Below are positions 1,633-18,030 of a stretch of DNA of 50,185 nucleotides, piece by piece. Numbering within the stretch: position 1 is the stretch's first letter; each line of letters begins with the position of its first letter. The position numbers and the translations under genes were made by a program. This DNA comes from Pseudorhodobacter antarcticus. Its GTDB lineage: Bacteria; Pseudomonadota; Alphaproteobacteria; Rhodobacterales; Rhodobacteraceae. The notes beneath the pieces were generated by a model that saw only the letters and a program-made list of their open reading frames with translations, was not told where the DNA came from and ran no database searches. The stretch lies in assembly GCA_945862435.1 (NCBI GenBank), contig CAMAXX010000020.1, positions 1-50,185 of the forward strand. Direction: 5' to 3'.

Positions 1633-2403
1633 CTAGACCGCCTCTTCAAACTCGGCCCCTGTTTTGGCCCCCGTGATATAGGCCACCACATCCTGACCAT
1701 CGGTTTCATCGCGGCGCAGGTTGGCGACAATTCGGCCGCGCCGAAACACGACGATGCGGTCGACCAAATCGAACACTTGGCGCATGTTATGGCTGATCAG
1801 AATCAAAGGCTCGCCCGCAGCCTTTAACGTGCGGATGATGTTTTCCACCTGCGCTGTTTCCTGCACCCCTAATGCCGCAGTGGGTTCATCCATGATGATC
1901 AATTTTGACGCAAAGGTCGCAGTACGGGCGATGGCCACGCATTGGCGCTGCCCGCCTGACATATTGCGGATCGTGTTAGACAGGTTCGGAATTTTCACAG
2001 CCGTTTTCACCAAAGCCTCTTCGGTGGCGCGGCGCATGGCGCGGCGATCCAGAATGGAAAATGGGCCAAGGTTGACCAAAATCTTCTCGCGGCCCAAAAA
2101 CAGATTGGACGGCACATCCAGATCATCGGCCAAGGCAAGATTTTGGAAAACGGCCTCGATCCCTGCTTCGCGCGCGTCCAAGGGGCCTGCAAAATTAACC
2201 TCGCGGCCATCAAAGATGATTTTGCCCGCTGTCGGCGCCTCCACCCCCGTAATCTGGCGCACAAAGGTTGATTTGCCTGCACCATTGTCGCCCATAATGG
2301 CCACATGTTCGCCCGCGTGCAGTGTAAAGTTCGCGTCGCTAAGCGCCTGTACCCCAGCGTAGTGTTTTGTCAGGCCTTGGGTTTGCAGAACAATCTTTTC
2401 CAT
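1633..2403 (-). CDS. Sugar/cyclitol ABC transporter ATP-binding protein (FrcA/RbsA-half type)
   Basis: The 256-residue cytoplasmic ATPase powers the importer encoded by the next two genes. It has Walker A GDNGAGKS at about residues 37-44, signature MSGGQRQ, Walker B LIIMDEPTAALG and a switch-region SHNMRQ. It is a single ABC domain, about half the length of RbsA/XylG, as in the FrcA branch. Its ATG overlaps the permease stop (TGATG at 2401-2405), so translation is probably coupled. It is the last gene of the minus-strand set LacI - TIM barrel - binding protein - permease - ATPase. The substrate cannot be read from the ATPase; context points to an inositol-like compound. Confidence 0.92.
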   Translation of the reverse strand: MEKIVLQTQGLTKHYAGVQALSDANFTLHAGEHVAIMGDNGAGKSTFVRQITGVEAPTAGKIIFDGREVNFAGPLDAREAGIEAVFQNLALADDLDVPSNLFLGREKILVNLGPFSILDRRAMRRATEEALVKTAVKIPNLSNTIRNMSGGQRQCVAIARTATFASKLIIMDEPTAALGVQETAQVENIIRTLKAAGEPLILISHNMRQVFDLVDRIVVFRRGRIVANLRRDETDGQDVVAYITGAKTGAEFEEAV

Positions 2404-3473
2404 CAGCCGCGTCCCCGCTTATTTTGGCGCCATTGATCCAGCACCACCGCGCCGACAATGATCGCGCCTTTGACCATTTCTTGATAATAGGCGTCCAGTT
2501 TCAAAAACGTGAAACCTGAAATAATCACCCCAAAGATCAGCGCCCCAATCACGGTGCCAATGATCGACCCGCGCCCGCCTTGCAACGATACGCCGCCAAT
2601 GACGGCCATCGCGATAGCGTCCAGCTCATACATCACGCCCATGCCCGCCTGCGCGGTAAGGTTCTTGGATGACAACACGACCGCTGCAAAGGCTGCAAGC
2701 ATCCCTGCGATGGTATAAACCAATACTTTGTGCCCTGTCACATTGATGCCCGCCATGCGCGCGGCCTGCTCGTTTGACCCAATGGCATAGCAATGCTTGC
2801 CGTATTTTGTGTAGGTCATGATTAAGTGGAACAGCAGCGCTAGCCCTATGAAGATGAACACAGGGATCAGGCCTTGGCCAATGCTGGCATAGCCTTCGGT
2901 GGGAAAGGAAATCGGGTTGCCTTTTGACCACCATTTGGCCATGCCCCGCGCCGTGACCATCATGCCAAGCGTTGCGATAAAGGGCGGGATACGGGTATAG
3001 GCAATCAGCGCGCCATTGACCAGCCCCGCCGCCAGCCCCATAGCCAGCCCCACCAAAACGGGCACAATCACGGGCAAATCCATGAATTCTGGCCCAAAAA
3101 TTGCTTTGGGGTTGGGGTTGCCGTTCACCATCGCCACTTGGGCAAAGCTCATCGCGACCATCGCGGTGGCCCCGACAATCGAGCCTGACGATAGGTCAAT
3201 GCCGCCTGTGATGATAACTTGCGTCACGCCCAGCGAAATGATGCCCACAATAGACACCTGCAAAATGATAATTTGCAGCCGCTGTTCATTGAACAAAGTG
3301 TCCACATTGTCGCGGGTGTTGAACAAAAAGCTGTCGCCCAAAAACACGCGGCCCAGAATTTCGAACGCGGCGACAATCAACACCAGCGCGGTAAAGACAT
3401 TCCATTCAGGAGCGCGGGTGCGCTTGGCTGGATCATATGACAATCCGCCAATCCCATGTGAAGATTTGGCCAT
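2403..3473 (-). CDS. Sugar/cyclitol ABC transporter permease (RbsC/FrcC family)
   Basis: A 356-residue inner-membrane permease of the BPD_transp_2 family. It has many hydrophobic segments and the family stretch GGIDLSSGSIVG at about residues 90-101, plus a C-terminal GGVSLQGGRGS (about 292-302) matching the conserved loop of RbsC-type permeases. Length is a little above the family norm because of a roughly 25-residue hydrophilic N-terminus. The start at 3473 follows a strong GGGGGG-rich ribosome-binding site. It forms the channel for the binding protein encoded upstream and pairs with the ATPase downstream. Confidence 0.93.
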   Translation of the reverse strand: MAKSSHGIGGLSYDPAKRTRAPEWNVFTALVLIVAAFEILGRVFLGDSFLFNTRDNVDTLFNEQRLQIIILQVSIVGIISLGVTQVIITGGIDLSSGSIVGATAMVAMSFAQVAMVNGNPNPKAIFGPEFMDLPVIVPVLVGLAMGLAAGLVNGALIAYTRIPPFIATLGMMVTARGMAKWWSKGNPISFPTEGYASIGQGLIPVFIFIGLALLFHLIMTYTKYGKHCYAIGSNEQAARMAGINVTGHKVLVYTIAGMLAAFAAVVLSSKNLTAQAGMGVMYELDAIAMAVIGGVSLQGGRGSIIGTVIGALIFGVIISGFTFLKLDAYYQEMVKGAIIVGAVVLDQWRQNKRGRG

Positions 3474-3514
3474 AGCCCCCCCTTTGCCCCTGTGGGCGAA
3501 TTAAAATGCAGTAA

Positions 3515-3538: not shown

Positions 3539-3559
3539 CACTTATCCCATAGGGAGGGA

Positions 3560-4501
3560 TTAATTTTTGGCCAGATAGTTGGCCAGATTAGCTGGGGTCA
3601 CCAGTTCGAAGGCAACATAGACCTTTTGTTCAACCGCTTCGCCAGCCGCCAGTTTGACCGCTGCGTCCAATGCGCCGCCGCCCTGTGCTGCTGCGTTTTG
3701 GAACACGGTGATGTCCAATTCGCCCGCTTGCATCGAGGCCAGCGCGTCTTGGGTCGCATCAACGCCGCTGATGATGACCGATGCCATGTCAATGTTTGCA
3801 GCCTTCATCGCCTGAATCGCGCCCAAGGCCATTTCGTCATTGTTGGCCAGCAGGCCGTCAAAGGCCGCTCCAGTCGAAAGCCAATTGGTCATCAGGTTCT
3901 GCGCTTCGTCACGCTGCCAGTTTGCAGTTTGCTGGTCGATTACGTTCACTTTAACGGCACATTTGCCAGCGTCGATCACATCTGTATAGTTCTGGGTGCG
4001 CTGAACGGCGGCTTGGTTGGAAAGTTCGCCCTGCATAACGTATACGTTGACTTCGGTTTTGCCAGCAGCGGCCCATTGGTTGCACTGCTCGATAAATCCT
4101 TGGCTGGACGAGTCCACTTCGTTCGAAGCAACAAAGGCTTGATTGTCGGGCAGTGTGTCAACGTTGATGGGCTGACGGTTTACGTAAACCAACGGGACAT
4201 TTGCGGCAGCGGCGGCATCCGAAATCGCTTGGGTGGCCGATGTGTCAACCGCGTTAACGATAATCGCTGAAACGCCCGAAGCGATAAAGTTGTTGATCTG
4301 GTCAAGCTGCTTAGCCACATCGTTTTGTGAATCTTCAATCTGAACTGTAAGGCCAGCAGCATCGGCCTGCGCCTGAATGCCGTTGCGCAGAACAGTCAGA
4401 AAGTTGTCGTCAAAGCGTGCCATTGACACGGCAATACCATCGGCCATAGCCGTGGTTGCCATCAGGCTGGCAAAGCCTGCAATCATAAGGGTCTTTTTCA
4501 T
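3560..4501 (-). CDS. Periplasmic substrate-binding protein, rhizopine/inositol-type (RbsB fold, MocB-like)
   Basis: 313 residues from ATG 4501; a longer frame upstream is not needed. A signal peptide (MKKTLMIAGFASLMATTAMA) ends near residue 20. The mature part is a Peripla_BP_4 protein: it begins with the first-strand pattern SMARFDDNF, then has NAVDTSATQAI (about 100-110), VASNEVD and NDEMALGAIQAMKAA, the hinge-proximal signature of ribose/inositol binding proteins. The overall wording resembles rhizopine-binding MocB as I remember it, which agrees with the MocD/MocE-like genes at 6708-8117. The start has a GGGAGAAAC ribosome-binding site. It feeds the permease and ATPase genes downstream. 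Substrate assignment is inference. Confidence 0.88.
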   Translation of the reverse strand: MKKTLMIAGFASLMATTAMADGIAVSMARFDDNFLTVLRNGIQAQADAAGLTVQIEDSQNDVAKQLDQINNFIASGVSAIIVNAVDTSATQAISDAAAAANVPLVYVNRQPINVDTLPDNQAFVASNEVDSSSQGFIEQCNQWAAAGKTEVNVYVMQGELSNQAAVQRTQNYTDVIDAGKCAVKVNVIDQQTANWQRDEAQNLMTNWLSTGAAFDGLLANNDEMALGAIQAMKAANIDMASVIISGVDATQDALASMQAGELDITVFQNAAAQGGGALDAAVKLAAGEAVEQKVYVAFELVTPANLANYLAKN

Positions 4502-4584: not shown

Positions 4585-5388
4585 TCAGGCAAGGCCCGCC
4601 GCGATGAAATCCATTGATGCCCGCAAATCTTGTGCGGGCGCGGTGCTGGCGTGGGTTTGCGGGGCAAAGGCCTCGTAACTGATTGGGCCAGTCCATCCTG
4701 CATCTTGCAGCGCCTTGATTTGGGCGATGTTGCCCAAGCGGTCGCTGCCATCCACCAAAAAGCGGTGCGCATCGGTCATCTGCGCAAGGGTAACATTCGG
4801 GTCAGTCACCCCAGAAATATGAACAATTCCAGTATGTTCTGGAAAAATCGGCCCGCCATGCGCCAAGGCGTGGTGGAAGGTGTCATGTACCAGTTTAAAG
4901 CGGCCCTTTGCGCCCAAGGTGTCTATTGCTTCGACCGCCTCGGATTTATAGCGCAGCGCGCAAATCTCGAACCCCAAAGGTTCGATCATACCCGTAAGGC
5001 CGTGATCTTCCAACATGGGTTTCAGCGCGCCAAGGGCTGTAAGTAGGGCGGCGCGGCGCTCATCCTCGCCCATAACAAGATTGTCGTTGCGCGGGATCAG
5101 CGCCACCGCTTCAGCCCCCGCAGCCTGCGCGATTTTCATCAGCGCCAGTGCTTCATTGGCCTTGGCGGGTGACCAATCGTTAAACCGCTTTACCTCGGCC
5201 AAGGCCAAAATACGCAGGCCTTTGTCGCGTGCCATTGCGCCCGCGTCGGCGGGCGTGACGCCATCAAACAACGTTTGCGGCAAATCGTTGCGCACCTCGA
5301 TGCCCACCATGCCAAGGTTTTGCGCTGTGTCCAAAAGCTGCGCATAGCTTTGCTTGGCCACCGTCATGTGATTTAGCGCGAAATTCAT
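4585..5388 (-). CDS. IolI-like TIM-barrel isomerase/epimerase
   Basis: 267 residues from ATG 5388, chosen because MNFALNHM is the usual first strand of the barrel and a GGGGAC site precedes it; the frame stays open 20 codons further. It belongs to the xylose-isomerase-like AP_endonuc_2 superfamily. The four expected metal ligands are visible: E136 (MIEPLGFE), D169 with H172 (VHDTFHH), H190 (IVHISGV) and E239 (SYEAFAP). The spacing matches B. subtilis IolI, which interconverts keto-inositols. Related families (hydroxypyruvate isomerase, sugar epimerases) cannot be excluded. It lies between the regulator gene and the transporter genes, 83 bases before the binding-protein start, so it should act on the imported compound in the cytoplasm. 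Confidence 0.8.
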   Translation of the reverse strand: MNFALNHMTVAKQSYAQLLDTAQNLGMVGIEVRNDLPQTLFDGVTPADAGAMARDKGLRILALAEVKRFNDWSPAKANEALALMKIAQAAGAEAVALIPRNDNLVMGEDERRAALLTALGALKPMLEDHGLTGMIEPLGFEICALRYKSEAVEAIDTLGAKGRFKLVHDTFHHALAHGGPIFPEHTGIVHISGVTDPNVTLAQMTDAHRFLVDGSDRLGNIAQIKALQDAGWTGPISYEAFAPQTHASTAPAQDLRASMDFIAAGLA

Positions 5389-5483
5389 TTTGTCCCCGTA
5401 CTTCTGCCTGCTCATGTTTCGAGCGGTTATCTTTAATGGAATTATCATTCTAAATTTTTTCGAGGCAATCCAAATCGGTCAAC

Positions 5484-5536
5484 TGACGAAAAATTACCTC
5501 TCTATCGCCACAAGTTTTGATGTTTTATCGTCAAAT
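5484..5536. promoter_or_regulatory. Operator-like half-sites between LacI and TIM-barrel genes
   Basis: TGACGAAAA (5484-5492) and ATCGTCAAAT (5527-5536, overlapping the 3' end of the LacI gene) repeat the half-site of the palindrome at 6593-6626. They lie just upstream of the TIM-barrel/transporter genes and could bind the same LacI regulator. Basis is sequence similarity only. Confidence 0.4.
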
Positions 5537-6571
5537 CGACTCGGCCAGATGTATGTCTGGACGGAAGAAAATTTGTCCCAAATCAGATACTTCGCCGCTG
5601 CCAGTGGCGACATCAATCATGCGGGAAAAAAGTTCGCGGCACAGTTTGTCCAGCGGGGTTTCCGTGACCAAGGTCACCAGCCCTTCGGCTAAACCTTGGC
5701 GTGTGTCGGGGGTTAAAACGGGGGCCACAAAGACCATATCGCCTGGCGCGCGCAATTCGCGCAGGGCGGCCAAGGCCCCCTCGACCCCGCCGCCCGACAC
5801 GAATATCCCGCGCAAGTTTGCGTGTTTGTTCAGCGCGTCCAACGTGGCCTCATAGGTCAGTTGGCGCGTTTCTAGATTGACGACGGTATCAAGCACTTCC
5901 AAATGGGGGGCCACTTCGCGCAGATAGCCGCGATAGCCAGCTTCGCGCAGTTCGTGCCCGTGAAAGCGGTGGCCGCCAACAAAGACCAGCAGCTTGCCAG
6001 GCTGTTTAGCGCCCAAGGCTGTAATCCAGCCTGCAGTGCGGCCAACCTTCAGATTATTCAGGCCTAAATAGCCAACGCGCACCCCTTGGGCAAAGTCGGA
6101 CAGCAGCGAAAAAACCCGAATGCCTTGCGCGCGCAAGTCTTCTGCCGCTGCCGTGACTTCGGGGTGGTTTACCCCCGTTCCCGCCACAACGTCGCAGCGC
6201 CCCGCCATGCTGCGCAGAGTTGCTGCCATATCGCTGGGCGATTGGCTGGGCGAAAACTCTAGCACCAGCTTTGCGCGCACGTTTTGTACTTGGGCGATGG
6301 CGGATTGCAATTCGTTGGCAAAGGCTTTGTAGAAATCTTGCCCTTGTTTGTGCAGCACCACCCCCAGCCGCACCTCGCGGGGTGCTGATTTTGCGGCCAA
6401 ATCATGCGCAAGACGCAGAGCGGCGGGATGGCCGATTCGCTGCGCGACAGCCAAGATGCGCGCCCGCGTGGCGGGCGAGACTGTTTCGCGCCCATTTAAG
6501 GCGCGGTCAATCGTGGCCAACGAGACGCCCGCCGCCTCGGCAAGATCAATAAGGCTAGCGCGTTTGGCCAT
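5531..6571 (-). CDS. LacI-family transcriptional regulator of the cyclitol island
   Basis: 346 residues. The N-terminal helix-turn-helix reads LIDLAEAAGVSLATIDRALN (about residues 7-26), followed by the hinge helix region ending near residue 60. The rest is a periplasmic-binding-protein-like sensor domain (for example GTGVNHPE, FVGGHRFHG, IFVSGGGVEG). It differs from classical LacI at VATVSRAL, here LATIDRAL, as in the branch linked to inositol/rhizose-type operons. It is transcribed ahead of the isomerase and transporter genes and divergently from the oxygenase genes. It therefore probably controls both and its own expression through the palindrome at 6593-6626. The inducer is unknown, presumably the imported compound or an early intermediate. 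Confidence 0.88.
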   Translation of the reverse strand: MAKRASLIDLAEAAGVSLATIDRALNGRETVSPATRARILAVAQRIGHPAALRLAHDLAAKSAPREVRLGVVLHKQGQDFYKAFANELQSAIAQVQNVRAKLVLEFSPSQSPSDMAATLRSMAGRCDVVAGTGVNHPEVTAAAEDLRAQGIRVFSLLSDFAQGVRVGYLGLNNLKVGRTAGWITALGAKQPGKLLVFVGGHRFHGHELREAGYRGYLREVAPHLEVLDTVVNLETRQLTYEATLDALNKHANLRGIFVSGGGVEGALAALRELRAPGDMVFVAPVLTPDTRQGLAEGLVTLVTETPLDKLCRELFSRMIDVATGSGEVSDLGQIFFRPDIHLAESI

Positions 6572-6592
6572 TTATGTCCCCTACTGAGGTTT

Positions 6593-6707: not shown

Positions 6708-7790
6708 ATGATGGGAAAGCGTGATTACAATTTGTTGGGGCCTGATGCGCAGCGTGCGGTTCAAACGGGTTTGGCTGCCGCGCAGTGGTACCATTCTGAC
6801 GTGCCGCGCCGCGAGATGAAAGAGTTGATGCAACGCAGCGATGGCCCTGCGATCCGCGATACAATTCTTCTGTTTGCGGCGATGGCAGTCTTTGCTGGCC
6901 TTGGCATTGCGCTTTGGCCCAGTTTTTGGGCGATCCCATTTTGGTTGGCATATGGGGTTTTGTACGGCAGCGCGATGGACAGTCGCTGGCACGAATGCGG
7001 TCACGGCACGGCGTTCAAGACCCCGTGGATGAATACCGCTGTTTATGAAATTGCCAGTTTCTGCATGATCCGCAATTCTGCGACATGGCGGTGGAGCCAT
7101 GCACGCCACCACACCGACACCGTGATTGTCGGGCGTGACCCTGAAATCGCGGTCATGCGCCCGCCTGTTTTCATCAAGGTGATTGCCAATTTTGTTGGCT
7201 TGATTGATGCGGCAACGGGCCTGACGCGGATGGTCTATAACGCACTTGGCAAGGTACATCCTGAAGAGGCCGTGTATATTCCCACGCAAGAGCAGTACAA
7301 AGTTGTCCGTGTTGCGCGAGTTTCGGTTGCGATTTATGGCGTGACCATTGGGTTGGCCGTTTTGACGGCTTCGATCCTGCCACTCATGGTGATTGGCCTG
7401 CCGCGTCTTTATGGCGCGTGGCATCATGTGATGACAGGCCTTTTGCAACATGGCGGCCTTGCGGACAATGTCACCGACCACCGTCTGAACAGCCGCACAG
7501 TCTATATGAACAGGGTCAGCCGCTTTATATACTGGAACATGAATTACCACGTCGAGCATCATATGTTCCCGATGGTGCCCTACCACGCGCTCCCTGCGCT
7601 GCACGCAAAGATCAAGCACGATTTGCCAGCGCCAAACCAATCGATTGCGCAGGGCTTTGGCGAAATGTGGCCCGCGCTGCGCCGCCAACTGGCGAATGAG
7701 GATTACTTTATCCAGCGCGCTTTGCCGCCTACGGCACAGCCTTACCGCAACGATTTTCATGCTGCCGCTTTGGGCAGTGCCGCAAAATAA
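6708..7790 (+). CDS. MocD-like fatty-acid-desaturase-family oxygenase
   Basis: A 360-residue integral-membrane di-iron protein. The three histidine boxes are intact: HECGH at 95-99, HARHH at 131-135 and HVEHH at 281-285. Hydrophobic segments lie at about 52-90 and about 200-235. The fold is that of fatty acid desaturases. However, the gene is followed 10 bases later by a Rieske ferredoxin, the same pairing as MocD/MocE of rhizobial rhizopine catabolism, where they are thought to remove the O-methyl group of 3-O-methyl-scyllo-inosamine. With an inositol-type importer and an IolI-like enzyme beside it, oxidative demethylation of a methylated cyclitol is more likely than lipid desaturation. No dedicated reductase (MocF) is seen in the window. 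Confidence 0.82.
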   Translation: MMGKRDYNLLGPDAQRAVQTGLAAAQWYHSDVPRREMKELMQRSDGPAIRDTILLFAAMAVFAGLGIALWPSFWAIPFWLAYGVLYGSAMDSRWHECGHGTAFKTPWMNTAVYEIASFCMIRNSATWRWSHARHHTDTVIVGRDPEIAVMRPPVFIKVIANFVGLIDAATGLTRMVYNALGKVHPEEAVYIPTQEQYKVVRVARVSVAIYGVTIGLAVLTASILPLMVIGLPRLYGAWHHVMTGLLQHGGLADNVTDHRLNSRTVYMNRVSRFIYWNMNYHVEHHMFPMVPYHALPALHAKIKHDLPAPNQSIAQGFGEMWPALRRQLANEDYFIQRALPPTAQPYRNDFHAAALGSAAK

Positions 7791-7799: not shown

Positions 7800-8117
7800 A
7801 TGCCCAATTGGATAAATGCCTGCGCCGCAGGTGACATCGATGCCGAAGACTTGATCCGTTTTGACCACGGCATCCAGACCTTTGCGATTTACCACGCGCC
7901 CGAAGGCGATTTTTATGCCACCGCGGGGCATTGTACCCATGAAAATGTACATCTGTGCGATGGTTTGGTGATGGGTCATCTTATCGAATGCCCCAAACAT
8001 AACGGCCAGTTCGACTATCGCACGGGCGAGGCAAAGCGCGCGCCTGTTTGCGTGAACTTGCGCACCTTTCCTGTCAAAGTTGAAGATGGGCGCGTTTTTA
8101 TTGATGTGGATGCATGA
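7800..8117 (+). CDS. MocE-like Rieske [2Fe-2S] ferredoxin
   Basis: 105 residues, soluble. The cluster ligands are C45-T-H47 and C64-P-K-H67 (CTH and CPKH), the standard C-x-H / C-x2-H Rieske pattern with the expected spacing. It should pass electrons to the di-iron oxygenase encoded 10 bases upstream. Length matches the small stand-alone ferredoxins of NirD/MocE type. Its stop codon overlaps the next start (ATGA at 8114-8117), so the third gene belongs to the same transcript. Confidence 0.88.
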   Translation: MPNWINACAAGDIDAEDLIRFDHGIQTFAIYHAPEGDFYATAGHCTHENVHLCDGLVMGHLIECPKHNGQFDYRTGEAKRAPVCVNLRTFPVKVEDGRVFIDVDA

Positions 8118-8914
8118 TGCGAAACGCTAAGATGACAGTGGCCGATTTGCGCGCCGCGAAAGGCCACCGCGTTCTGACGATGCTGTATGTGGAAACGCCT
8201 GATGAGGCGGCGGCGGCCGCAGCGGCAGGGGTGGATGTGCTGTCTATCGTCGCGCCCGTTTGGAGCGCCCAGATGCGCGAGGCGGCGGGGGATTGCTTTG
8301 TGCAGGTTGGTCTTTTGTATGGCGAATTGGTGACCACCGAAGATTACCTGCGCGCGGCCTTTGCGGCCCGCGCCGTTGGGGGCGATGCCTATTACTGCGG
8401 GGCGGGTCTGGGCACAGTGCGCGCGCTTGCCGGCGAGGGGCTGCCGGTGGTGGGCCATGTGGGGCTGGTTCCATCCAAGGCCACTTGGACGGGTGGGTTT
8501 AAGGCCGTGGGTAAAACTGCCGTATCCGCCCTGCAAGTGGCGGCCGATATGCGCGCGCTGCAGCAGGCGGGCGCAGTGGCGGTTGAGTTAGAGGTTGTGC
8601 CAGCCCGCGTGGGGGCAGAACTGTCGCGCCGATCGCCGCTTGTCACCTTTGGTATGGGGGCGGGCAGCGGCACTGATGCGCAATATCTGTTTGCCGAAGA
8701 TGTGCTGGGCTGCACGCGCGGCCACCGCCCGCGCCATGCCAAAACCTATCGAAACTTTGCCGCAGAATATGCGCGCTTGCAGGCCGAACGGATCGCAGCC
8801 TTTGGCGAATTTGTCGCGGATGTAAAGACGTGCCGCTACCCCGCCGCTGAACATGATGTGCCCGTTGATGACGCAGAATTTTCGGCGTTCTTGGCGGGGC
8901 TTGGGGATGATTGA
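8114..8914 (+). CDS. Divergent PanB-like protein (ketopantoate hydroxymethyltransferase family)
   Basis: 266 residues. The second half is clearly PanB-like: PVVGHVGLVPSKATWTGGFK (111-130), AVELEVVP (156-163, with E160 at the catalytic Glu position), then MGAGSGTDAQYL and a TRGHRPRHAKTY stretch aligning with PanB GITGGHIPKFAKNF. In the first half the Mg2+ ligands of E. coli PanB appear to be lost: the VGDS site aligns with IVAP (A47 for D45), and ADLP aligns with VGLL (G66 for D84). The KIEG site is also changed (YYCG). It is probably not the housekeeping pantothenate enzyme. Its overlap with the ferredoxin gene suggests a role in the same pathway, perhaps an aldol or one-carbon step on a 2-keto intermediate. 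That function is inferred. Confidence 0.75.
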   Translation: MMRNAKMTVADLRAAKGHRVLTMLYVETPDEAAAAAAAGVDVLSIVAPVWSAQMREAAGDCFVQVGLLYGELVTTEDYLRAAFAARAVGGDAYYCGAGLGTVRALAGEGLPVVGHVGLVPSKATWTGGFKAVGKTAVSALQVAADMRALQQAGAVAVELEVVPARVGAELSRRSPLVTFGMGAGSGTDAQYLFAEDVLGCTRGHRPRHAKTYRNFAAEYARLQAERIAAFGEFVADVKTCRYPAAEHDVPVDDAEFSAFLAGLGDD

Positions 8915-10591: not shown

Positions 10592-11210
10592 CTTCGAACT
10601 CCGTCACAGGCAGGCTGAAGGAGATAACATAAGCGTTGTCGCCCTTTGCGGCCGAGATGTACGCGCCAACCATGCCATCGCCATTCGGCGCGGCGGCTTG
10701 AAAGCCATTATCCATGTGCAAGATAGCGGTGCCTTCGAATTCTGGGGTCTCGCCGTCAACGGTTACGCCGCCTGCTTCCCATTTGTATTCAAATTCGGTG
10801 TAGACCTTGTCGCCCTCAGGATACTCTTCGGCAGATTGCAGGGTAAGGGTCGCAGGCAAGGCCGCCAGTTTGTTAAAGTCGGCGTTCGTCAACTTGCCTT
10901 CGATGGCCTTATCAATGCCTTCATGAACAAACTCGACCGAAAAATCAATTTCGCGGTAGGGGTTGTAGTCAGAATCGCTCAGCAGATATTCGCGCTTTAG
11001 CGCAACAGTTGCAGAAGTGATGTCCATCACCTGCACGTCAAACTTTTTGCCGTCAACAGTGCCCATAATAACCAAATGGGGCTGCTCGCCCAGCCATTCG
11101 GTTGGGGCTGCGGTCAGCGTGTTGCCGGGCGTGATGGTTTCCATCATCGGATCAGCCAGTGCAATGCAAGGTGCCAAAGTTGCCATCAAGAGAGGAGCAG
11201 TTAAACGCAT
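10581..11210 (-). CDS. Secreted protein of unknown function, phytase partner
   Basis: 209 residues from ATG 11210, which has a GGAAA ribosome-binding site; the frame is open further upstream but the leader would be spoiled. MRLTAPLLMATLAPCIALA is a clear signal peptide. The mature part is acidic and beta-rich (EWLGEQPHLVIMGTVDGKKFDVQVMD, EYPEGDKVYTEFEYKWEAG, HMDNGFQAAAPNGDGMVGAYI) without cysteine pairs or known catalytic motifs. I do not recognise the family. Its 3' end overlaps the phytase start by 11 bases, so the two are co-translated. A chaperone, ligand-binding or calcium-related helper role is possible but unproven. Confidence 0.75.
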   Translation of the reverse strand: MRLTAPLLMATLAPCIALADPMMETITPGNTLTAAPTEWLGEQPHLVIMGTVDGKKFDVQVMDITSATVALKREYLLSDSDYNPYREIDFSVEFVHEGIDKAIEGKLTNADFNKLAALPATLTLQSAEEYPEGDKVYTEFEYKWEAGGVTVDGETPEFEGTAILHMDNGFQAAAPNGDGMVGAYISAAKGDNAYVISFSLPVTEFEVED

Positions 11211-11475
11211 AGTGTTTCCTTTCAACGAAATTGGTTGCGTGTAGGGTCTGGCTAAAAGCAGCCTGTAACGGTTTTGTGTCGCCAATTCGGGCCGATTGCG
11301 TTGATTTTCTGAAGTTCTAAGAAATTCATGGCCTTAGGTGCGGATATTTTTTTTCAAGTCTATTTTGTGTTTGTTTTTGTTTAACAAATACGATGCACAT
11401 ATGTGCAAAAAGTCATAATTCCGTTACGATCAACACCTAACGATTCGACCTGGATGTGGCGGATAGGGCAAGGTT
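11211..11475. promoter_or_regulatory. Divergent promoter region with a 14-bp palindrome
   Basis: This is the only non-coding space between the phytase operon and the transporter operon, and it is AT-rich (about 11340-11390). TGCACATATGTGCA (11394-11407) is a perfect palindrome, a candidate operator for the LacI regulator at 17014. I did not see a PhoB box (paired CTGTCAT). Confidence 0.5.
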
Positions 11476-13296
11476 TTGGGGCAGCGGGCAGACCACGGTG
11501 TATGCGGGCATTGGCGCGCGGCGCAACGCGGCGCGCGTGCGGTCTATCAAAACCCTGTCCTTGGGCTTGGCTTGGTATTGTTGGCCAGTTTTCTGTGGCT
11601 AATCGCCCTACCAATCGTGTTGATTTTGCTGGATGCCTTCACCTCTCAATCTGGCGACGGCGCACGCACCGGCGTGTCCGATGGGGCGCTGACGTTTTAT
11701 TATCTAGGCCGCGCCTTCGCCTCGCGCATGTCTGGCATTATCTTTTTCGCGCCGCTGTGGAACACGATCTTGGTGGCCAGCGGCGCAAGTGCCCTTGCCC
11801 TGATCTTGGGGTCAGTATTGGCTTGGCTTTTGGTGCGCAGTGACATTCCCCTGCGTGGCTGGCTGGCGGGGGCGATGATCGTGCCTTATATGTTGCCCGT
11901 TTGGACATTTGCCTTGGCATGGGTAACGCTGTTCAAGAATGCAGCGTTGGGCGGCCAGCCGGGTTGGGTGCAGGCGATGGGCGCGCAGCCGCCCGATTGG
12001 CTGGCCTATGGCGCGGTGCCGACAATCGTCATCCTTACACTGCACTACATTCCCTTTGCCATTTTGATTATCGGCGGGGCCATGCAGCGATTGGACGGGC
12101 AATTAGAAGAGGCAGCGCAAATTCAGGGCGCGAACAGAGCGACCATCTTGCGCCGGATTACGATTCCCGCACTGCGGCCTGCCGTTTTGTCGGCGGGCCT
12201 GTTGATGTTTGCCGATGCTGTGGGCGAGTTTTCTGTGCCCTATATCTTGGGCTTGCCTGTTCAATTTGAAACGTTGTCCGTGTCTTTGTTCAGGGCCATT
12301 AGCACGCAGCAAAACGGCATGGCCGCTGTTTTCGCTGGGGTTGTTTTGCTGATTGGCTGCATCACGCTGGGCATAGATGCGTGGCTGCTGCGCGAAGCGC
12401 GGCGGTTCACCACCATTGGCGGCAAAGCCGCAATCAATCGCACCAGCCCGCTGCGACGCTGGCGCTGGCCCATCTTTGCGGCGGTCTTAGCGCTGTTTAT
12501 TATCAGCGTTGTTGTGCCACTGCTGACACTTACCCTATCGACTGTGATGCATATTCCAGCGCGGTTTACATGGGCGAACTTTACGCTCGATTATTGGATT
12601 GGCACAAATCTGCCCACGGTGGCCTTTCAAACGGGAATTCTAATTGCGCCCGAATTTTGGCGTGCCGCTTGGAATTCGGTGCGCATTGCGGGCAGCGCGG
12701 CTGTTGCTGCGGGCGTACTTGGTCTTTTGGTGGGCTATGTCGTTGCGCGCAGCCCTTGGCGGTGGCTTGCAACCAGTCTGAGGACAGTGACGTTTCTGCC
12801 CTATTTGGTGCCTGGCATTGCATTTGCAGCCGCCATACTTGTGCTTTTTGCCGTGCAGCGCGGGCCAATTCCAGCGCTTTACGGAACGCCATGGATTTTG
12901 CTACTGGCCCTGATTGCCGATCAGATGCCTTTTGCCAGCCGCGTTGGTATGTCGGCCATGGCACAGCTTGGCCCCGATGTGGAAGACGCGGCGCGTGTCA
13001 TGGGGGCAGGGCTGCTGCGCAGGTTACGCAGCATCGTGTTGCCCATTTTGAACGGCGCATTGGCTACGGCGATTTTGCTTTCGTTCATATCTGGGATCAA
13101 GGGTGTCAGCCTGTTCATTCTGCTGGCCGTCCCGTCAACTGACGTATTGACCACCTTTTCGTTGCGTCTGGTGGATTATGGCTATGCCCAAGCGGCCAAT
13201 GCTGTGGTGCTAATCATCGCAATTATTGCCCTTCTCGGCAGCCTTGCGCTGCGCCGTGCGGCAGGGGCAGGGATTGGCCAGGGAATTATATCTTAA
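11476..13296 (+). CDS. Fused ABC transporter permease (FbpB/AfuB type)
   Basis: About 606 residues with two complete BPD_transp_1 permease halves in one chain, about 12 membrane segments. The coupling-helix (EAA) loops are EEAAQIQGANRATILRRITIP in the first half and EDAARVMGAGLLRRLRSIVLP in the second. The reading frame has no ATG before the first membrane helix; the most upstream usable codon is TTG 11476 behind AGGGCAAGG, so the exact start is uncertain. This transporter family was named for iron, but some members (AfuABC) import sugar phosphates. Here the downstream phosphatase genes favour a phosphorylated substrate. The stop abuts the ATPase start. Confidence 0.88.
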   Translation: MGQRADHGVCGHWRAAQRGARAVYQNPVLGLGLVLLASFLWLIALPIVLILLDAFTSQSGDGARTGVSDGALTFYYLGRAFASRMSGIIFFAPLWNTILVASGASALALILGSVLAWLLVRSDIPLRGWLAGAMIVPYMLPVWTFALAWVTLFKNAALGGQPGWVQAMGAQPPDWLAYGAVPTIVILTLHYIPFAILIIGGAMQRLDGQLEEAAQIQGANRATILRRITIPALRPAVLSAGLLMFADAVGEFSVPYILGLPVQFETLSVSLFRAISTQQNGMAAVFAGVVLLIGCITLGIDAWLLREARRFTTIGGKAAINRTSPLRRWRWPIFAAVLALFIISVVVPLLTLTLSTVMHIPARFTWANFTLDYWIGTNLPTVAFQTGILIAPEFWRAAWNSVRIAGSAAVAAGVLGLLVGYVVARSPWRWLATSLRTVTFLPYLVPGIAFAAAILVLFAVQRGPIPALYGTPWILLLALIADQMPFASRVGMSAMAQLGPDVEDAARVMGAGLLRRLRSIVLPILNGALATAILLSFISGIKGVSLFILLAVPSTDVLTTFSLRLVDYGYAQAANAVVLIIAIIALLGSLALRRAAGAGIGQGIIS

Positions 13297-14400
13297 ATGT
13301 CTGATATAGAACTGAAAAATCTTACAAAAAGCTTTGGGCAGGGAAATGCTGTTGCGGGTGTATCCCTCACAATTAAGGCGGGGTCGTTCACCTGTATTCT
13401 GGGCCCGTCGGGGTGTGGAAAGACCACGCTTTTGCGGATGATTGCGGGGCTAGAGCGGGCAAGCGCGGGCCAGATTTCCATCGGTGGGCGCACGGTGGAC
13501 GATCCCGCGCAAAACCGATTTGTGCCGCCAGACCAGCGCGGCATCGGATTGGTGTTTCAATCCTATGCGCTGTGGCCGCATATGACCGTCGCGCAGAACG
13601 TCGACTTTGGGCTACGCGTGCAGCGCCAAAGCGCGGCCCTGCGCGAGGCGCGCACTGCCGAAATGCTGGCGACCCTGCGCATCAGCGATCTGGCAGATCG
13701 CTATCCCGCGCAGTTATCGGGCGGGCAACAGCAGCGCGTGGCCCTTGCGCGGACGATGGCGCTGGCGCCTAAGGTCTTGTTGTTGGACGAGCCGCTGTCA
13801 AACCTTGATGCAACCCTGCGTTTGGCCATGCGCGCCGAATTGGCCCATTTGCACCGCAGCTTTGGCACCACGATTGTTTTTGTGACCCATGATCAATGGG
13901 AGGCGATGACACTGGCCACAGATATCATCGTGCTGGCGGACGGCGCTGTTCAACAATTGGGCAGCGCAGTTGAGGTATACGATCAACCGGCCAGCCGCTT
14001 TGTGGCCGAGTTTATCGGCAATCCACCGATCAATGTTTTTTCCGCAGGCAGCCCCGCCGCCATTGCCCTAATCCCGCCGCAGGTCTCTCAGCCCAACTCC
14101 ATCACCGCCAGTTTGCGGCCAGAGGCGATGGACGTCATCGCGCAGGATGTTGGTGCGGCTCAGATTGCAGGGGCGCTTGGCGCTAGCGTCACGGCATTGA
14201 TACCTACGGGGGGGTCTTGGATCGTTGAAATGGCGCTGAACTTGGGTGGCGCGCCTGTGCTTCACGCCACATCTGCACGCCCAAGCGTTCATGTAGGCCA
14301 ACCTGTTGCCATCATTCCGCAGGCCTCTGGGGTGCATCTGTTTGCACCAGACGGCCAAAGATTGCCTATTCTTTCCCCAGCCCAAAAGGAGAAACCATGA
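13297..14400 (+). CDS. ABC transporter ATP-binding protein (FbpC/PotA type)
   Basis: 367 residues. Walker A GPSGCGKTT is at about 33-41, Q-loop FQSYALWPHMTV at about 85-96, signature LSGGQQQRVALAR, Walker B VLLLDEPLSNLD and a switch histidine in FVTHDQWEAM. A C-terminal TOBE-type domain (about 240-367) is where related ATPases sense regulators or substrate state. It drives the fused permease encoded directly upstream (adjacent stop and start at 13296/13297). Its own stop overlaps the binding-protein start (ATGA). Substrate cannot be told from this subunit. Confidence 0.93.
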   Translation: MSDIELKNLTKSFGQGNAVAGVSLTIKAGSFTCILGPSGCGKTTLLRMIAGLERASAGQISIGGRTVDDPAQNRFVPPDQRGIGLVFQSYALWPHMTVAQNVDFGLRVQRQSAALREARTAEMLATLRISDLADRYPAQLSGGQQQRVALARTMALAPKVLLLDEPLSNLDATLRLAMRAELAHLHRSFGTTIVFVTHDQWEAMTLATDIIVLADGAVQQLGSAVEVYDQPASRFVAEFIGNPPINVFSAGSPAAIALIPPQVSQPNSITASLRPEAMDVIAQDVGAAQIAGALGASVTALIPTGGSWIVEMALNLGGAPVLHATSARPSVHVGQPVAIIPQASGVHLFAPDGQRLPILSPAQKEKP

Positions 14401-15491
14401 AACACCTGTCTCTCTTCCTTTGTACCGCACTTGCATTTCCTGCAATGGCCGAAACCTTTGACGAGGCAGCGCTGCTGGCAGCCGCGCAAAACGAGCCGCC
14501 CCTGATGGTAATTGATTCCACAGGCAAAGTGCGCGAACAGACCGCGGGTTTTTCCGCCAAATATGGCCTTGTCGCAAATGGCACAAAATCAGAAGCGCCC
14601 GGCACAATCCGCCTTGTCATGGGCGAGGCGCAGGCAGGCAATGTGCAGGCCGATGTTTTGGTGATTTCTGACACCCCTGCAGCAGTCGCGCAGTTGTTAA
14701 CACCCGGCCTTGCGATCAGCTATTTGCCCTCTGACATGACCGACGCCATTCCCGCGCCCGTGCGCAATCCTTTGGTCATCTCAAACTCGCCGGTGGTGTG
14801 GACATATAACACCGCCCTGCACGATACCTGCCCCGTCACAAATATCTGGGCGCTGACAGATCCCGAATGGGCGGGGCGCGTGGCGATGCCCGATCCCTTG
14901 GGCAAGCCCGCCTATACCGATTGGTTTAATCAGTTTGCCATGCATCATGATGCAGCTTTTGCGCAAGCTTACAGCGACCATTACGGCAAGCCATTGGCAA
15001 CCGATCGCGCCAGTGCAGCAGAGGCTTGGGTAGCCGCCCTTGCCGCAAACCAGCCCCTTTTGGTGGAGTCAGACAGTGATTCAGCCGAAGCCGTGGGCGC
15101 GCCAGATGCCACCGAAACCTTTCTCGGTATCATGTCAACTGCCAAGTACCGCGATAATGACGATGGCATGAAACTGGGCATTTGCGCGCAAATGCAGCCA
15201 TTCGTCGGCATGATGACCCCTAAATTTGCCTTAATCACGGCAGGCACCGACAGCCCCAATGCCGCGCGCCTTTTCGTGCATTACCTACTGACCGAAGAGG
15301 GTTGGGGCCCGCAAGCCATTGACGGAAAAATGCCTACCAACACAACCCATGCCTCGGTTGCAGACGAGCCTTCTGGCGTGGCGGGTGTGATGGATAAAAT
15401 GCTGCAATACAACACCGCGTCATCGACCGAAGATTGGAACTCCCGCCAAGATTGGCAAGATATCTGGTCGCTTGCGCGCGCTGGCCAATGA
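14397..15491 (+). CDS. Periplasmic substrate-binding protein of the FbpA/AfuA-like transporter
   Basis: 364 residues with a signal peptide MKHLSLFLCTALAFPAMA. The mature part is a type-2 periplasmic binding protein (SBP_bac_6/11-like): GTIRLVMGEAQAGNVQADVLVISD in the first lobe, VWTYNTALHDTCPVTNIWALTDPEWAGRVAMPDP at the crossover and a C-terminal lobe ending near ARLFVHYLLTEEGWGP. Clear paired tyrosines for ferric iron, as in FbpA, are not evident. With phosphatase genes following, an organophosphate such as an inositol or sugar phosphate is a reasonable guess. Its start overlaps the ATPase stop by 4 bases. Confidence 0.85.
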   Translation: MKHLSLFLCTALAFPAMAETFDEAALLAAAQNEPPLMVIDSTGKVREQTAGFSAKYGLVANGTKSEAPGTIRLVMGEAQAGNVQADVLVISDTPAAVAQLLTPGLAISYLPSDMTDAIPAPVRNPLVISNSPVVWTYNTALHDTCPVTNIWALTDPEWAGRVAMPDPLGKPAYTDWFNQFAMHHDAAFAQAYSDHYGKPLATDRASAAEAWVAALAANQPLLVESDSDSAEAVGAPDATETFLGIMSTAKYRDNDDGMKLGICAQMQPFVGMMTPKFALITAGTDSPNAARLFVHYLLTEEGWGPQAIDGKMPTNTTHASVADEPSGVAGVMDKMLQYNTASSTEDWNSRQDWQDIWSLARAGQ

Positions 15492-15501
15492 ATTAACCTG
15501 A

Positions 15502-15530: not shown

Positions 15531-15551
15531 AGACTTAGGATCCTAAACGAT

Positions 15552-16370
15552 ATGTCTCTTGACCTGACCGCACGCGCCACCTTTTTGCGCGCCCTTGCCC
15601 CCAAAGCAGGCGATCTTGCCCGCGCGGGATTTGAATCGCGCGAAAAGGGCACCTTTACTCTGAAAGGGCCGCAAGATTTCTTGACCGAAACCGATACTGC
15701 GGTCGAAAATTTCATTCGCGCCGAAATTGCCGCAGCGTTTCCCAACGACGGCATTTTGGGCGAAGAGGGCGGCGGTGATCTGACTGCGCAGATGTGGATC
15801 ATCGACCCAGTGGATGGCACCGCCAACTTTGCGCGCGGCGTGCCGCATTTTTGTGTTTGCATCAGCTTTTGCGAAAATGGTTCCCCCGCATTGGGGGCCA
15901 TATTTCAACCAATGACAGGCGAGTTTTGGTTCGCACAAAACGGCCAAGGCGCAGAAAAGAATGGTGCCCCTATTCACGTGACAAGCACGCCCAGCCCGCA
16001 AACCGCCTGTGTTGAAATGGGATGGTCGCGGCGACATTCAATTGCAGGTTATCTGGCTGCACAGGGCCATATTCTAACAGGCGGGGCCAATATTCGCCGC
16101 GCAGGATCGGGGGCTCTGGGGCTGGCTTGGGTGGCCGAGGGGCGGTCTGATGGGTATCTTGAAGCTGCAATGCACAGTTGGGATTGTCTTGCGGGTATGC
16201 TGATCGTGCGCGAGGCGGGCGGCGCTGTGCTGCCCTTTGGCCCGAACGCATCAGATCTTGGATCGGTTGCAGCTTTGGCCAGCCCGCAGCCCGTGCGCGC
16301 CTGCACCCCTGCGCTGACAGCGTTGCTGGACGGTGCGCTTGCCCTTGCAACTGGAAAGGGCGCTGAATAA
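15552..16370 (+). CDS. Inositol-monophosphatase-family phosphatase
   Basis: 272 residues. All FIG/IMPase metal-site motifs are present: DFLTETDTAVE at about 39-49, GEEGG at about 74-78, WIIDPVDGTANF at about 86-97 and HSWDCLAGMLIVREAGG at about 206-222. The family hydrolyses inositol monophosphates, histidinol phosphate, PAP or fructose-1,6-bisphosphate using Mg2+. No signal peptide is seen, so it acts in the cytoplasm on imported material. Its stop overlaps the next start (TAATG at 16368-16372). In this setting, after a phosphate-ester-type importer and near a phytase, inositol phosphate is the leading substrate. A HisN-like role is the main alternative but is disfavoured by context. Confidence 0.88.
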   Translation: MSLDLTARATFLRALAPKAGDLARAGFESREKGTFTLKGPQDFLTETDTAVENFIRAEIAAAFPNDGILGEEGGGDLTAQMWIIDPVDGTANFARGVPHFCVCISFCENGSPALGAIFQPMTGEFWFAQNGQGAEKNGAPIHVTSTPSPQTACVEMGWSRRHSIAGYLAAQGHILTGGANIRRAGSGALGLAWVAEGRSDGYLEAAMHSWDCLAGMLIVREAGGAVLPFGPNASDLGSVAALASPQPVRACTPALTALLDGALALATGKGAE

Positions 16371-17017
16371 TGAACCTGCCCCCGACAACATCACTTCGTG
16401 CCCTTTTCGATGCCGCCGATGCAAATCGCGCTGCAATGCATGTGATCGCACGCGACTTTTCCGGCGTGGATTTATATGTCGGCAATCGCCAAGCGGCATC
16501 TGACCCCGCCCTTTTGGTAAAGCACGGGGTAAATGCCGTGCTGAATTGTGCCTTGAATTTGGATATCAATTTGGTGAAGTCCCCCGCAAGCGACTGTCGC
16601 AACCAGGATTTTGGCCGCGCCGGTCTGCGTTATTACAAATTGGGGCTGATCGACGGGGCGGGTAACCCTGCCGAAATGCTGCTGGCGGGGTATTTGCAAC
16701 TGTGCGGGCTAATGCGCCAACAAATGCCAAACAAGGCCACCTATCCTTGGCCCAGCGGCGGGCATGTTTTGGTGAACTGCCGCGGCGGGCGCAGCAGATC
16801 CGTCGTTTTGGTCAGCCTGTTTTTGCATTTGCAGCGCCCAGCCAGCTTTCCCACACTCGACGCGGCGATTGCCCATGTGCGCGATATGCGCCAGCTTGAT
16901 CCCGTGGAATGGCCCAGCGCACCCAAACCCGTTCTGATCGAAGCGGCGCTTTGGGCGGCATCAGCGGCAAAGCTTTTGCAAGGGCATGCGTTTTTGCAAG
17001 GTGCAGCCGCACAATGA
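16370..17017 (+). CDS. Dual-specificity-like cysteine phosphatase
   Basis: 215 residues. The P-loop VNCRGGRSRS contains Cys137 and Arg143 in the C-x5-R arrangement of tyrosine/dual-specificity phosphatases; Asp95 in LGLIDGAGN is placed to act as the general acid. The usual His before the Cys is replaced by Asn136, which is unusual. The N-terminal part YVGNRQAAS ... GVNAVLNCA is typical of bacterial DSP-like proteins. Some members of this fold dephosphorylate inositol phosphates rather than proteins. It is translationally coupled to the IMPase upstream and the LacI gene downstream (ATGA at 17014-17017), so it probably takes part in breaking down the imported phosphate ester. Confidence 0.78.
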   Translation: MNLPPTTSLRALFDAADANRAAMHVIARDFSGVDLYVGNRQAASDPALLVKHGVNAVLNCALNLDINLVKSPASDCRNQDFGRAGLRYYKLGLIDGAGNPAEMLLAGYLQLCGLMRQQMPNKATYPWPSGGHVLVNCRGGRSRSVVLVSLFLHLQRPASFPTLDAAIAHVRDMRQLDPVEWPSAPKPVLIEAALWAASAAKLLQGHAFLQGAAAQ

Positions 17018-18030
17018 AAACAAAGTTGCCTCCCCCAAACGGCACAGCCGCTTCGGCATCAGATGTTGCGCGCTTGGCTGGGGTGTCGCGTTCGGCTGTA
17101 TCGCGCACCTTTACAAATGGGGCGTCTGTGTCGGCCGACACCCGCGCCAAAGTGCTGCGCGCCGCCGAAGAGCTGCACTATCATGTCAATTTTCTGGCGC
17201 GCGGATTGTCCAAACAAGAAAGCCGCCCCGTCTGCATTTTGGTTTCAAACCTGCACAAACCTTATCATGCGCAATTGCTAGATCATATAACCACAGCGTT
17301 GCAAAAGGCGCAGCGGATCAGCATCATTATCAACGTGGGGGATGATCCTGCCGCAGCGTCTGGCGCGCTAGAGCAAACGCTAAACTACCGCGCTTCGGCG
17401 ACCATTGTGCTGTCAGGATCGCCGCCTGCGCCTATGGTGCGCCGCTGCGTAGAGGTGGGGCAAAGCGTGATTTTGGTGAACCGCGCCGATGATCTGCCCG
17501 ATGTGCGCCACATCTCGATTGATTACGAAACAGCCATGCGCAACGCCGTGCAGATGTTCATGCGCGCAGGGTGCCAGAAAATCGCCCTTGTCTCGCGCGC
17601 GGTGCGCACGCCCAGCCTTTTGGCGCGCGAAGAGTTTTTCATTGCCTTTTTGCGCGCGCAAAACATCACGCCGCAGTTGTGGCGCGGCGCTTCAACCAGC
17701 TATGAAGCGGGCCAGCAAGCCATGCGCGAATTGTTGGTGGGCCTTGATCCGCCTGATGGGGTGTTTTGCATCAACGATCTGATGGCCTGCGGCTGTATTG
17801 ATACCGCGCGCCACGAATTTAAACGCCGCCTGCCCGAAGATCTGTGTATTCTGGGATTTGACGACATCGCACAGGCTGCGTGGTCGGGGTATGACCTTAC
17901 CACGTTTGCCCAACCCTATGCCGAAATTGCGCAGGCAGTGGTGCAAAGCGTGGCCGTTCAACCCAGCGCGCATAATGCGAAAATTTTGCTGTACGCGCGC
18001 CCCGTGTGGCGCGGCACCATGCGCAACTGA
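17014..18030 (+). CDS. LacI-family transcriptional regulator of the phosphate-ester operon
   Basis: 338 residues from ATG 17014, overlapping the phosphatase stop. The helix-turn-helix SASDVARLAGVSRSAVSRTFT (about residues 14-34) and the following NGASVSADTRAKVLRAAEELHYHVN are canonical. The sensor domain contains ILVSNLHKPYHAQLLD, VFCINDLMACGCIDTA and LGFDDIAQAAWSGYDLTTF, the usual LacI/GalR landmarks. It is the last gene of the plus-strand operon and so likely autoregulates it. A candidate operator is the palindrome at 11394-11407. Inducer unknown. Confidence 0.9.
   Translation: MKTKLPPPNGTAASASDVARLAGVSRSAVSRTFTNGASVSADTRAKVLRAAEELHYHVNFLARGLSKQESRPVCILVSNLHKPYHAQLLDHITTALQKAQRISIIINVGDDPAAASGALEQTLNYRASATIVLSGSPPAPMVRRCVEVGQSVILVNRADDLPDVRHISIDYETAMRNAVQMFMRAGCQKIALVSRAVRTPSLLAREEFFIAFLRAQNITPQLWRGASTSYEAGQQAMRELLVGLDPPDGVFCINDLMACGCIDTARHEFKRRLPEDLCILGFDDIAQAAWSGYDLTTFAQPYAEIAQAVVQSVAVQPSAHNAKILLYARPVWRGTMRN

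Follow-up and report, generated by a model that had tools for sequence, protein, structure and literature searches.

Phytate is a major organic phosphorus store of soil and seeds, and bacteria are usually described as using it by removing phosphate outside the cytosol and then taking up inositol. One example is the periplasmic-phytase route of Mitsuokella, for which passages of the published report describe conversion of phytate to inositol that is then catabolised, with inositol 2-phosphate (Ins(2)P) as an intermediate and with induction of an inositol transporter (PMC7618129). Import of intact phosphorylated metabolites by ATP-binding cassette (ABC) systems that resemble ferric importers is described in passages on AfuABC, which carries hexose and heptose phosphates and whose binding protein AfuA coordinates the sugar through H205, D206 and E229 (PMC4546632), and on P5PAB, which carries pyridoxal phosphate (PLP; PMC8427247). 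No report of a bacterial inositol-phosphate importer was found in the open-licence PMC literature, in which subscription papers are mostly not covered. Likewise, the passages bearing on this question in PMC4546632, PMC8427247, PMC12482443, PMC9430895, PMC12838507, PMC7618129, PMC11219571, PMC7762957 and PMC4743836 describe none, and the word ‘inositol’ is absent from the main texts of PMC4546632 and PMC8427247. Here we describe a locus from Pseudorhodobacter antarcticus in which the genes for a predicted secreted phytase and its partner are divergent from an AfuABC-like importer operon that also encodes two phosphatases and a regulator, and we evaluate the possibility that this importer carries a phosphorylated inositol.

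The window, by which we mean the whole stretch of DNA analysed, is 50,185 nucleotides long and constitutes one whole contig (CAMAXX010000020.1, C20) of assembly GCA_945862435.1, a genome of 2.74 Mb that is 83.7% complete. Prefixes L, G and C below denote loci, genomes and contigs. The genes of interest occupy two halves, of which the left is described further below and the right comprises the following features.

9530..10591, minus strand: beta-propeller phytase (PF02333, E 1e-65, nearly full length)
10581..11210, minus strand: secreted-looking partner protein (h234) of 209 amino acids, no Pfam match, signal-like N-terminus; upstream of the phytase gene and overlapping its start
11394..11407, no strand: palindrome TGCACATATGTGCA, predicted LacI-family operator, between the divergent phytase/partner and importer transcripts
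11476..13296, plus strand: fused ABC permease with two BPD_transp_1 stretches; the true start may be 11500 or 11542
13297..14400, plus strand: ABC ATPase (PF00005)
14397..15491, plus strand: periplasmic binding protein (PF13531, SBP_bac_11), predicted inositol-phosphate binder
15552..16370, plus strand: inositol monophosphatase (IMPase)-family phosphatase, no signal peptide (PF00459, E 1.2e-59; best match to IMPases in the PDB, E 5e-40)
16370..17017, plus strand: dual-specificity phosphatase (DSP)-fold CX5R phosphatase, no signal peptide, P-loop C-R-G-G-R-S-R (Pfam score 27.9 bits)
17014..18030, plus strand: LacI-family regulator (PF00356/PF13377); open frame from 16909

We give a probability of about 0.77 to the reading that the right half encodes a route from phytate to inositol in which a phosphorylated intermediate, the predicted ligand, is imported. 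The secreted phytase would trim phytate to lower inositol phosphates, either outside the cell or in the periplasm, and the ABC importer would carry one of these into the cytosol with phosphate still attached. There, the DSP-fold phosphatase and the IMPase would strip the remaining phosphate or phosphates, and free inositol would enter the iolBEDC pathway, whose genes lie elsewhere in the genome. Phytase and importer would be controlled together by a LacI-family regulator that acts at the sequence TGCAC-N4-GTGCA. For this scheme we infer the ligand, its number of phosphates, the division of labour between the phosphatases, the pairing of regulator with operator and the inducer. The route would share with that of Mitsuokella the conversion of phytate to catabolised inositol and would differ from it in that the phosphorylated form, rather than inositol, is taken up.

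The importer resembles AfuABC and P5PAB in being a ferric-importer-like system of binding protein, permease and ATPase whose binding protein is similar in profile (E 1.4e-6 to AfuA, PDB 4r72) and in fold. It differs from them in its identity of only ~20% and in the addition of the IMPase, the DSP, its own LacI operator and linkage to phytase and iol genes. A new function for a known transporter architecture is predicted, with support at the comparative-genomics level. If correct, such an importer would explain how a carbon ring and its phosphate can be captured without feeding competitors, and would provide a function for a gene set that combines an ‘iron ABC transporter’ with an inositol monophosphatase and a dual specificity phosphatase, is common in rhizobia and has a representative on pSymB of S. 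meliloti.

All genes named in an original prediction made from this sequence without database searches were found intact where it had placed them when open reading frames (ORFs) and Pfam matches were examined across the window. That prediction had proposed a secreted beta-propeller phytase and a divergent importer operon ending in IMPase, DSP-like and LacI genes, and both descriptions agree with the domain matches. The phytase resembles the solved beta-propeller phytases 1poo and 3amr (E ~4e-50), covers nearly all of PF02333, and begins with a hydrophobic N-terminus ending in ALNA-Q that is signal-like by simple hydropathy, no dedicated predictor having been used; secretion and phytate hydrolysis are thus predicted. 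We take Bacillus PhyC to be the comparator for this class. Two features, both additions to the original prediction, distinguish the window phytase from the solved examples: the conserved secreted-looking partner, and a divergent promoter region, shared with the importer, that contains a perfect palindrome.

Relatives were collected by scanning an alignment of the DSP against one genome per species (84,980 species), which yielded 189 relatives, and the best 80 were kept (hereafter the 80 DSP loci). Among these, L073 and L111 share a contig and overlap there, and several of the 80 lie on short contigs. Eight plasmid loci, of which L038 lacks annotation, were inspected in addition. The closest named relatives of the window DSP reside on metagenome-assembled Pseudorhodobacter or Rhodobacter contigs. 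Homologues of the other operon genes are found at most of the 80 DSP loci: the permease at 73, the binding protein at 75, the IMPase at 75 and LacI at 78.

Linkage of phytase and importer, which the original prediction had proposed as a check on itself, is kept in five named Rhodobacterales contigs besides the window. The entire order, with phytase and partner divergent from permease, ATPase, binding protein, IMPase, DSP and LacI, is conserved at L045, L046, L047, L049 and Donghicola mangrovi L052 (phytase 67% identical), where L049 is apparently the record of genome G018 (L027). In this genome, the right half is complete and arranged as in the window, at 69-85% identity. The phytase-partner pair is kept in G018, G157, L045, L046, L047 and L052. 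Among 196 genomes drawn from Rhodobacterales, the source genome included, a phytase was found in three (the source genome, G018 at 85% and G157 at 60%), a DSP in four (the source genome, G018, G087 and G159) and both in two (Fisher p 0.0009). Genome G087 carries an importer with two binding proteins, IMPase, DSP, metallophosphoesterase and LacI, and has no phytase. A draw of 398 genomes at the phylum level contained the DSP in six, namely the source genome, G018, G348 and three that carry a variant operon lacking IMPase.

The same operon adjoins beta-propeller, PhyK-like and MINPP-like phytases, which presumably represent two unrelated folds. Linked phytases among the 80 DSP loci are beta-propeller enzymes in six cases (the five contigs above and Devosia naphthalenivorans L113, whose phytase is distant at 30% identity, PF02333 E 9.5e-40) and histidine acid phosphatases (HAPs) of the MINPP type in two. 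The latter are from Vibrio sp. HDW18 (L043/L064), with best PDB matches to 6rxd, ‘Histidine acid phosphatase’ (E 5e-70), and then 7zgf, ‘Multiple inositol-polyphosphate phosphatase’ (E 9e-66), and from Halomonas sp. S3-1-1 (L070; PF00328, MINPP-like, 29% identical to the Vibrio enzyme). A third arrangement resides on Klebsiella plasmid pKP121-2, where a KdgM porin and a histidine phosphatase, a PhyK-like HAP (best PDB match 2wnh, ‘3-phytase’, E 8.5e-82), accompany permease, ATPase, binding protein, an IMPase-DSP fusion and LacI. At coverage of at least 80%, this block was found in four plasmid records, including L040:5828-14582 (NZ_CP031851.1), and no E. coli genome carried it at megablast level. 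In a FastTree phylogeny of 81 permeases, whose support values were not inspected, the phytase-linked loci are spread over five or six branches. Chance adjacency of phytase and importer was rejected in view of its recurrence in other contigs.

The palindrome at 11394-11407 gains its weight from conservation, because a search of the window alone for palindromes with up to two mismatches is not significant (one found, 0.38 expected). A total of 74 copies of its core, TGCAC-N4-GTGCA, were found at 45 of the 80 DSP loci, compared with 0-4 in each of ten mononucleotide shuffles. For 62 of these 74 sites, the distance to the start of a permease, LacI, IMPase, binding protein, phytase or partner gene is between -120 and 450 bases. 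A core site separates the divergent phytase and permease genes of the window, of L045, L046, L047 and L049, of Devosia (L113:2427) and of Vibrio (L064:4841), and L052 has only a degenerate copy in this position. At L063, the permease, the IMPase/DSP group and the pair formed by LacI and a sodium/phosphate (Na/Pi) cotransporter each have a core site of their own in front, a distribution that ties these modules together. The source genome has one exact copy of the full palindrome and four exact core sites, among which those on C4 and C15 are inside open frames and that on C2 is between ORFs.

Both phosphatases are predicted to act in the cytosol. Their maximum 12-residue hydropathies (0.9 for the IMPase and 0.7 for the DSP) correspond to no signal peptide by the same simple measure that gives 2.0-2.5 for the phytase, partner and binding protein, and the Klebsiella and Vibrio loci repeat this division between phytases with signal-like N-termini and IMPase and DSP without. 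Membership of the IMPase family is clear from PF00459. The DSP scores below the Pfam cut-off (27.9 versus 33.5 bits), and its assignment as a CX5R dual-specificity phosphatase comes from its loop and from a predicted model (predicted local distance difference test score, pLDDT, 89.5) that matches DUSP phosphatases. The loop C-R-[GSA]-G-R-S-R is present in 80 of 80 loci, 74 recognized by pattern and six read by eye; one of the two scan patterns included NCRG, and the 25 loci with NCRSG must stem from the other. Among the substrate-contacting residues of PTEN named in a passage of PMC4743836 are Lys125 and Lys128, at positions +1 and +4 relative to the catalytic Cys, and the DSP has basic residues in these same two places in 80 of 80 loci. 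It differs from PTEN in its DUSP-like fold, in having Arg for Lys and in residing in a bacterial operon. Activity on inositol phosphates is therefore a prediction by analogy with the PTEN loop, and not by membership of the PTEN family. The IMPase and DSP genes are fused in Klebsiella and in Erwinia, where strain E602 shows no phytase in the stretch displayed. The presence of such cytosolic phosphatases in an import operon argues that the substrate enters in phosphorylated form.

Genes for inositol catabolism also recur beside the operon, with IolB at eight and IolD at five of the 80 DSP loci. In Neorhizobium SHOUNA12A (L054), iolG directly precedes IMPase and DSP, and divergent iolC, D, E and B genes lie beyond. 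Five of seven Marinomonas importer loci (L065, L090, L097, L105 and L107) have iolG and iolB starting ~0.6-1.8 kb after LacI, with iolD and iolC also in the stretch in three of the five; the stretches of the other two (L094 and L101) lack iolG and iolB after LacI. Devosia L113 has iolG, iolB and part of iolD beside its operon. Lone DSP genes adjoin iol genes without an importer in G348 (L189:10119-18185) and Marinomonas pontica (L123:9944-13063). The source genome encodes iolB, E, D and C together on C4. Adjacent iol genes, IMPase and DSP proteins without signal peptides and a shared operator all fit import of a phosphorylated inositol, and the proposal to this effect in the original prediction thus gains support from comparative genomics.

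Several observations weigh against this reading. Linkage is infrequent: with the queries used, a linked phytase was found at eight of the 80 DSP loci, a linked iolB at eight and either one at 15, and most loci instead have a metallophosphoesterase (55 of 80) and an Na/Pi cotransporter (43 of 80) as neighbours. When phytases were sought in 25 whole genomes that carry the operon (24 picked for loci without a linked phytase, plus that of L070), four had PF00328 (one of them the linked gene), two had PF02333 and 19 had neither, which implies that many owners use lower inositol phosphates from the environment, another phytase class or another substrate. The 14 control loci, which are all those found of a related importer subfamily without DSP, have no phytase, iol or IMPase gene; the phytase contrast of 8/80 with 0/14 is not significant (p 0.26), and the weight is consequently carried by repeated linkage and the operator. 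With the source genome left out, the Rhodobacterales co-occurrence weakens to phytase in two, DSP in three and both in one of 195 genomes (p 0.03), and G157 has the phytase-partner pair (partner 42% identical) without an importer.

The operator adds further points of this kind. Thirty-five of the 80 DSP loci, L052 included, have no exact core. One of the 14 controls (L033:6047) has the core ~77 bases before its permease match (38% identity), in a stretch without DSP, IMPase or phytase, and the core is also found upstream of variant DSP operons that lack IMPase (L031 and L191-L193), so its occurrence is not confined to operons with a linked phytase. No exact operator was found near three unlinked HAP genes in 18-kb stretches from Rhizobium FY34, Rhizobium CSW-27 and Marinomonas polaris, or near the unlinked PF02333 genes in 4-kb loci of the L050 and L053 genomes; one site with a single mismatch lies 4 kb from an unlinked HAP gene (L206). 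In fold, the binding protein most closely matches the metal-citrate binder MctA, at 21% identity, with AfuA and VcA0625 at 19-20%. Finally, Ins(2)P and an inositol trisphosphate (InsP3) cannot be told apart as ligand from sequence.

A more specific form of the phosphorylated-inositol reading, which we regard as possible at somewhat below even odds, is a dedicated route for multiply phosphorylated inositol (InsP2-InsP3) in alpha- and gamma-proteobacteria. The phytase would stop early, the ABC system would import the polyanionic product, and the DSP with its PTEN-like loop, followed by the IMPase, would finish the process in the cytosol, including removal of the axial 2-phosphate that many phytases leave. 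Rhizobia would add the metallophosphoesterase and an Na/Pi carrier that could export surplus phosphate.

The frequent metallophosphoesterase could also signify a different substrate. The importer might carry glycerophosphoinositol, or inositol 1-phosphate (Ins(1)P), from phospholipid breakdown, with phosphoesterases yielding Ins(1)P for the IMPase and with phytase linkage being secondary. A possible diesterase at 55 of 80 loci, the variant operon with a metallo-beta-lactamase-fold protein, the lack of a linked phytase at most loci and the preference of IMPase for Ins(1)P all fit this explanation. We consider it unlikely, since three phytase types joined the operon on five or six permease-tree branches, and since the window and 10 gamma-proteobacterial loci of the 80 have no metallophosphoesterase homologue. 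Two metallophosphoesterases that were checked have hydropathies of 1.2-1.3 and N-termini that resemble metal-binding motifs.

Properties of the binding protein bear on two further alternatives. A single-sequence search of the PDB gave no match. Its AlphaFold model (pLDDT 93.3) matches MctA, ferric binders, the opine binder MotA, the glucose 6-phosphate binder VcA0625 and the fructose 6-phosphate binder AfuA in Foldseek searches, a range spanning metal-citrate, ferric, opine and sugar-phosphate binders, so that fold leaves the ligand unfixed. The similarity to AfuA and VcA0625 in profile and fold would suit an AfuABC-type hexose-phosphate (or PLP-type) importer, whose phosphatases would release free sugar and whose phytase and iol neighbours would be there by chance. 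Repeated phytase and iol linkage, together with an operator shared by phytase and importer, makes this quite improbable. Similarly, a ferric or metal-chelate importer (FbpABC- or MctA-like), perhaps for iron bound to or released from phytate, would accord with the label ‘iron ABC transporter permease’ in sequence records, with MctA followed by ferric binders as the best fold matches, and with the chelation of iron by phytate. FbpABC-type ferric binding proteins bind iron through an adjacent Tyr pair, and no such pair was found in an alignment of 46 sequences (no neighbouring columns with at least 80% Tyr, and no YY in 12 rows printed); a ferric-importer identity was rejected on this basis. The family also has an invariant Gly followed by Lys at the position of the MctA Asp mutated in 7f6p, and the operon encodes phosphatases without signal peptides, leaving this explanation very improbable. 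Uptake of free inositol, with IMPase and DSP serving another process, would by itself fit the iol linkage and is extremely improbable, because the left half has an inositol-type binder from which the binding protein differs, 75 of 80 DSP loci have an IMPase homologue, which is fused to DSP in two lineages, and the DSP adjoins iol genes even without an importer (L189 and L123).

Candidate anion contacts in the binding protein are K64, K250, R252, K311 and R350, which are invariant in its family, and the near-invariant K44. The wider subfamily probably also serves another pathway, given that at L029:3761-13593 a binding protein of 44-47% identity and its importer adjoin a RuBisCO-like protein, a GFO/IDH/MocA oxidoreductase and a GntR regulator.

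The left half of the window, followed by the element that separates it from the right, has the following features.

1633..2403, minus strand: ABC ATPase (PF00005)
2403..3473, minus strand: permease (PF02653)
3560..4501, minus strand: sugar/inositol-type binding protein (Peripla_BP_4, PF13407), signal-like N-terminus; open frame to 4696
4585..5448, minus strand: IolI/IolE-like TIM barrel (PF01261), start uncertain
5531..6571, minus strand: LacI-family regulator (PF00356)
6708..7790, plus strand: desaturase/oxygenase (PF00487), presumably MocD-like
7800..8117, plus strand: ferredoxin assigned by motif (CTHENVHLCDG and CPKHNGQFD, read in the translation), which we take to be Rieske-type and MocE-like
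8114..8914, plus strand: ketopantoate-hydroxymethyltransferase-like (PanB-like) protein (PF02548)
~8985..9464, no strand: remnant of an IS3-family insertion sequence between the halves, all six frames interrupted

These genes appear to form a separate inositol unit. The pair that we presume to be MocD- and MocE-like, found with an inositol-type importer and LacI and TIM-barrel genes, recalls rhizopine (Moc) and ABC inositol importers, and iol genes are close by in relatives. The unit differs in its PanB-like third gene, in that no MocF-type reductase was noticed (no search was aimed at MocF), and in that four relatives lack a phytase. In those four stretches (L165-L168), chosen from the best matches, all eight gene types occur together and iolG lies at most 0.8 kb from the ATPase gene, followed by iolD and iolB at L167 and by iolC, D, E and B at L168. 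Phytase and other right-half genes are absent from these stretches, and the four genomes concerned (G062, G175, G106 and G132) gave no phytase match in the 196-genome search. Conversely, the TIM barrel, desaturase, Rieske and PanB-like genes of the left half are all missing from the 80 DSP loci, and G018 has left-type genes on C32 and C34 and the phytase island on C14.

Of the substituted-inositol importer envisaged originally for this half, the inositol unit is upheld by iol genes in all four relatives; a substrate that is O-methylated or otherwise substituted is probable, with ‘methyl-inositol’ itself being a further step. The two clusters had also been treated as one island perhaps joined by a dead insertion sequence. 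An IS3 remnant does lie between them: a distant blastn match (71.9%, covering 78% of the query) is a stretch of a Pseudorhodobacter turbinis plasmid without annotation, and other matches are annotated ‘IS3 family transposase’. A single conserved two-part island was rejected, given the left units without phytase at L165-L168 and the separate contigs of G018. The union was seen only in the window among the relatives examined, few of whose stretches reach far enough (among close relatives only L046 and L052 extend ~3 kb past the phytase, and the others end within ~0.5 kb). The left unit looks to have come to lie beside the right half through an IS3-associated event or by chance.

Other arrangements of right-half components were encountered. 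A partner relative of 41% identity adjoins the operon at L050:5089-5442, where no phytase is linked, and another partner is present at L030:10195-10824. A two-component system adjoins the importer operon at L190:1112-4356 (G348). The variant operon (L031:8120-14715, L191, L192 and L193) consists of DSP, a metallo-beta-lactamase-fold protein, permease, ATPase and LacI, with no IMPase homologue found in the stretch, and perhaps serves a related phosphorylated or cyclic-phosphate polyol. The rhizobial version of the operon is represented by S. medicae (L039:15042-25714) and by S. meliloti 1021 pSymB (L038, ~165.8-179.2 kb). The S. medicae locus includes a metallophosphoesterase and an Na/Pi cotransporter that has PhoU domains and through which excess phosphate might leave the cell. 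Beyond the right half, positions 18436-23820 of the window encode RTX-repeat proteins, comprising a shorter frame followed by a protein of 1630 amino acids that contains 28 stretches of hemolysin-type calcium-binding repeats.

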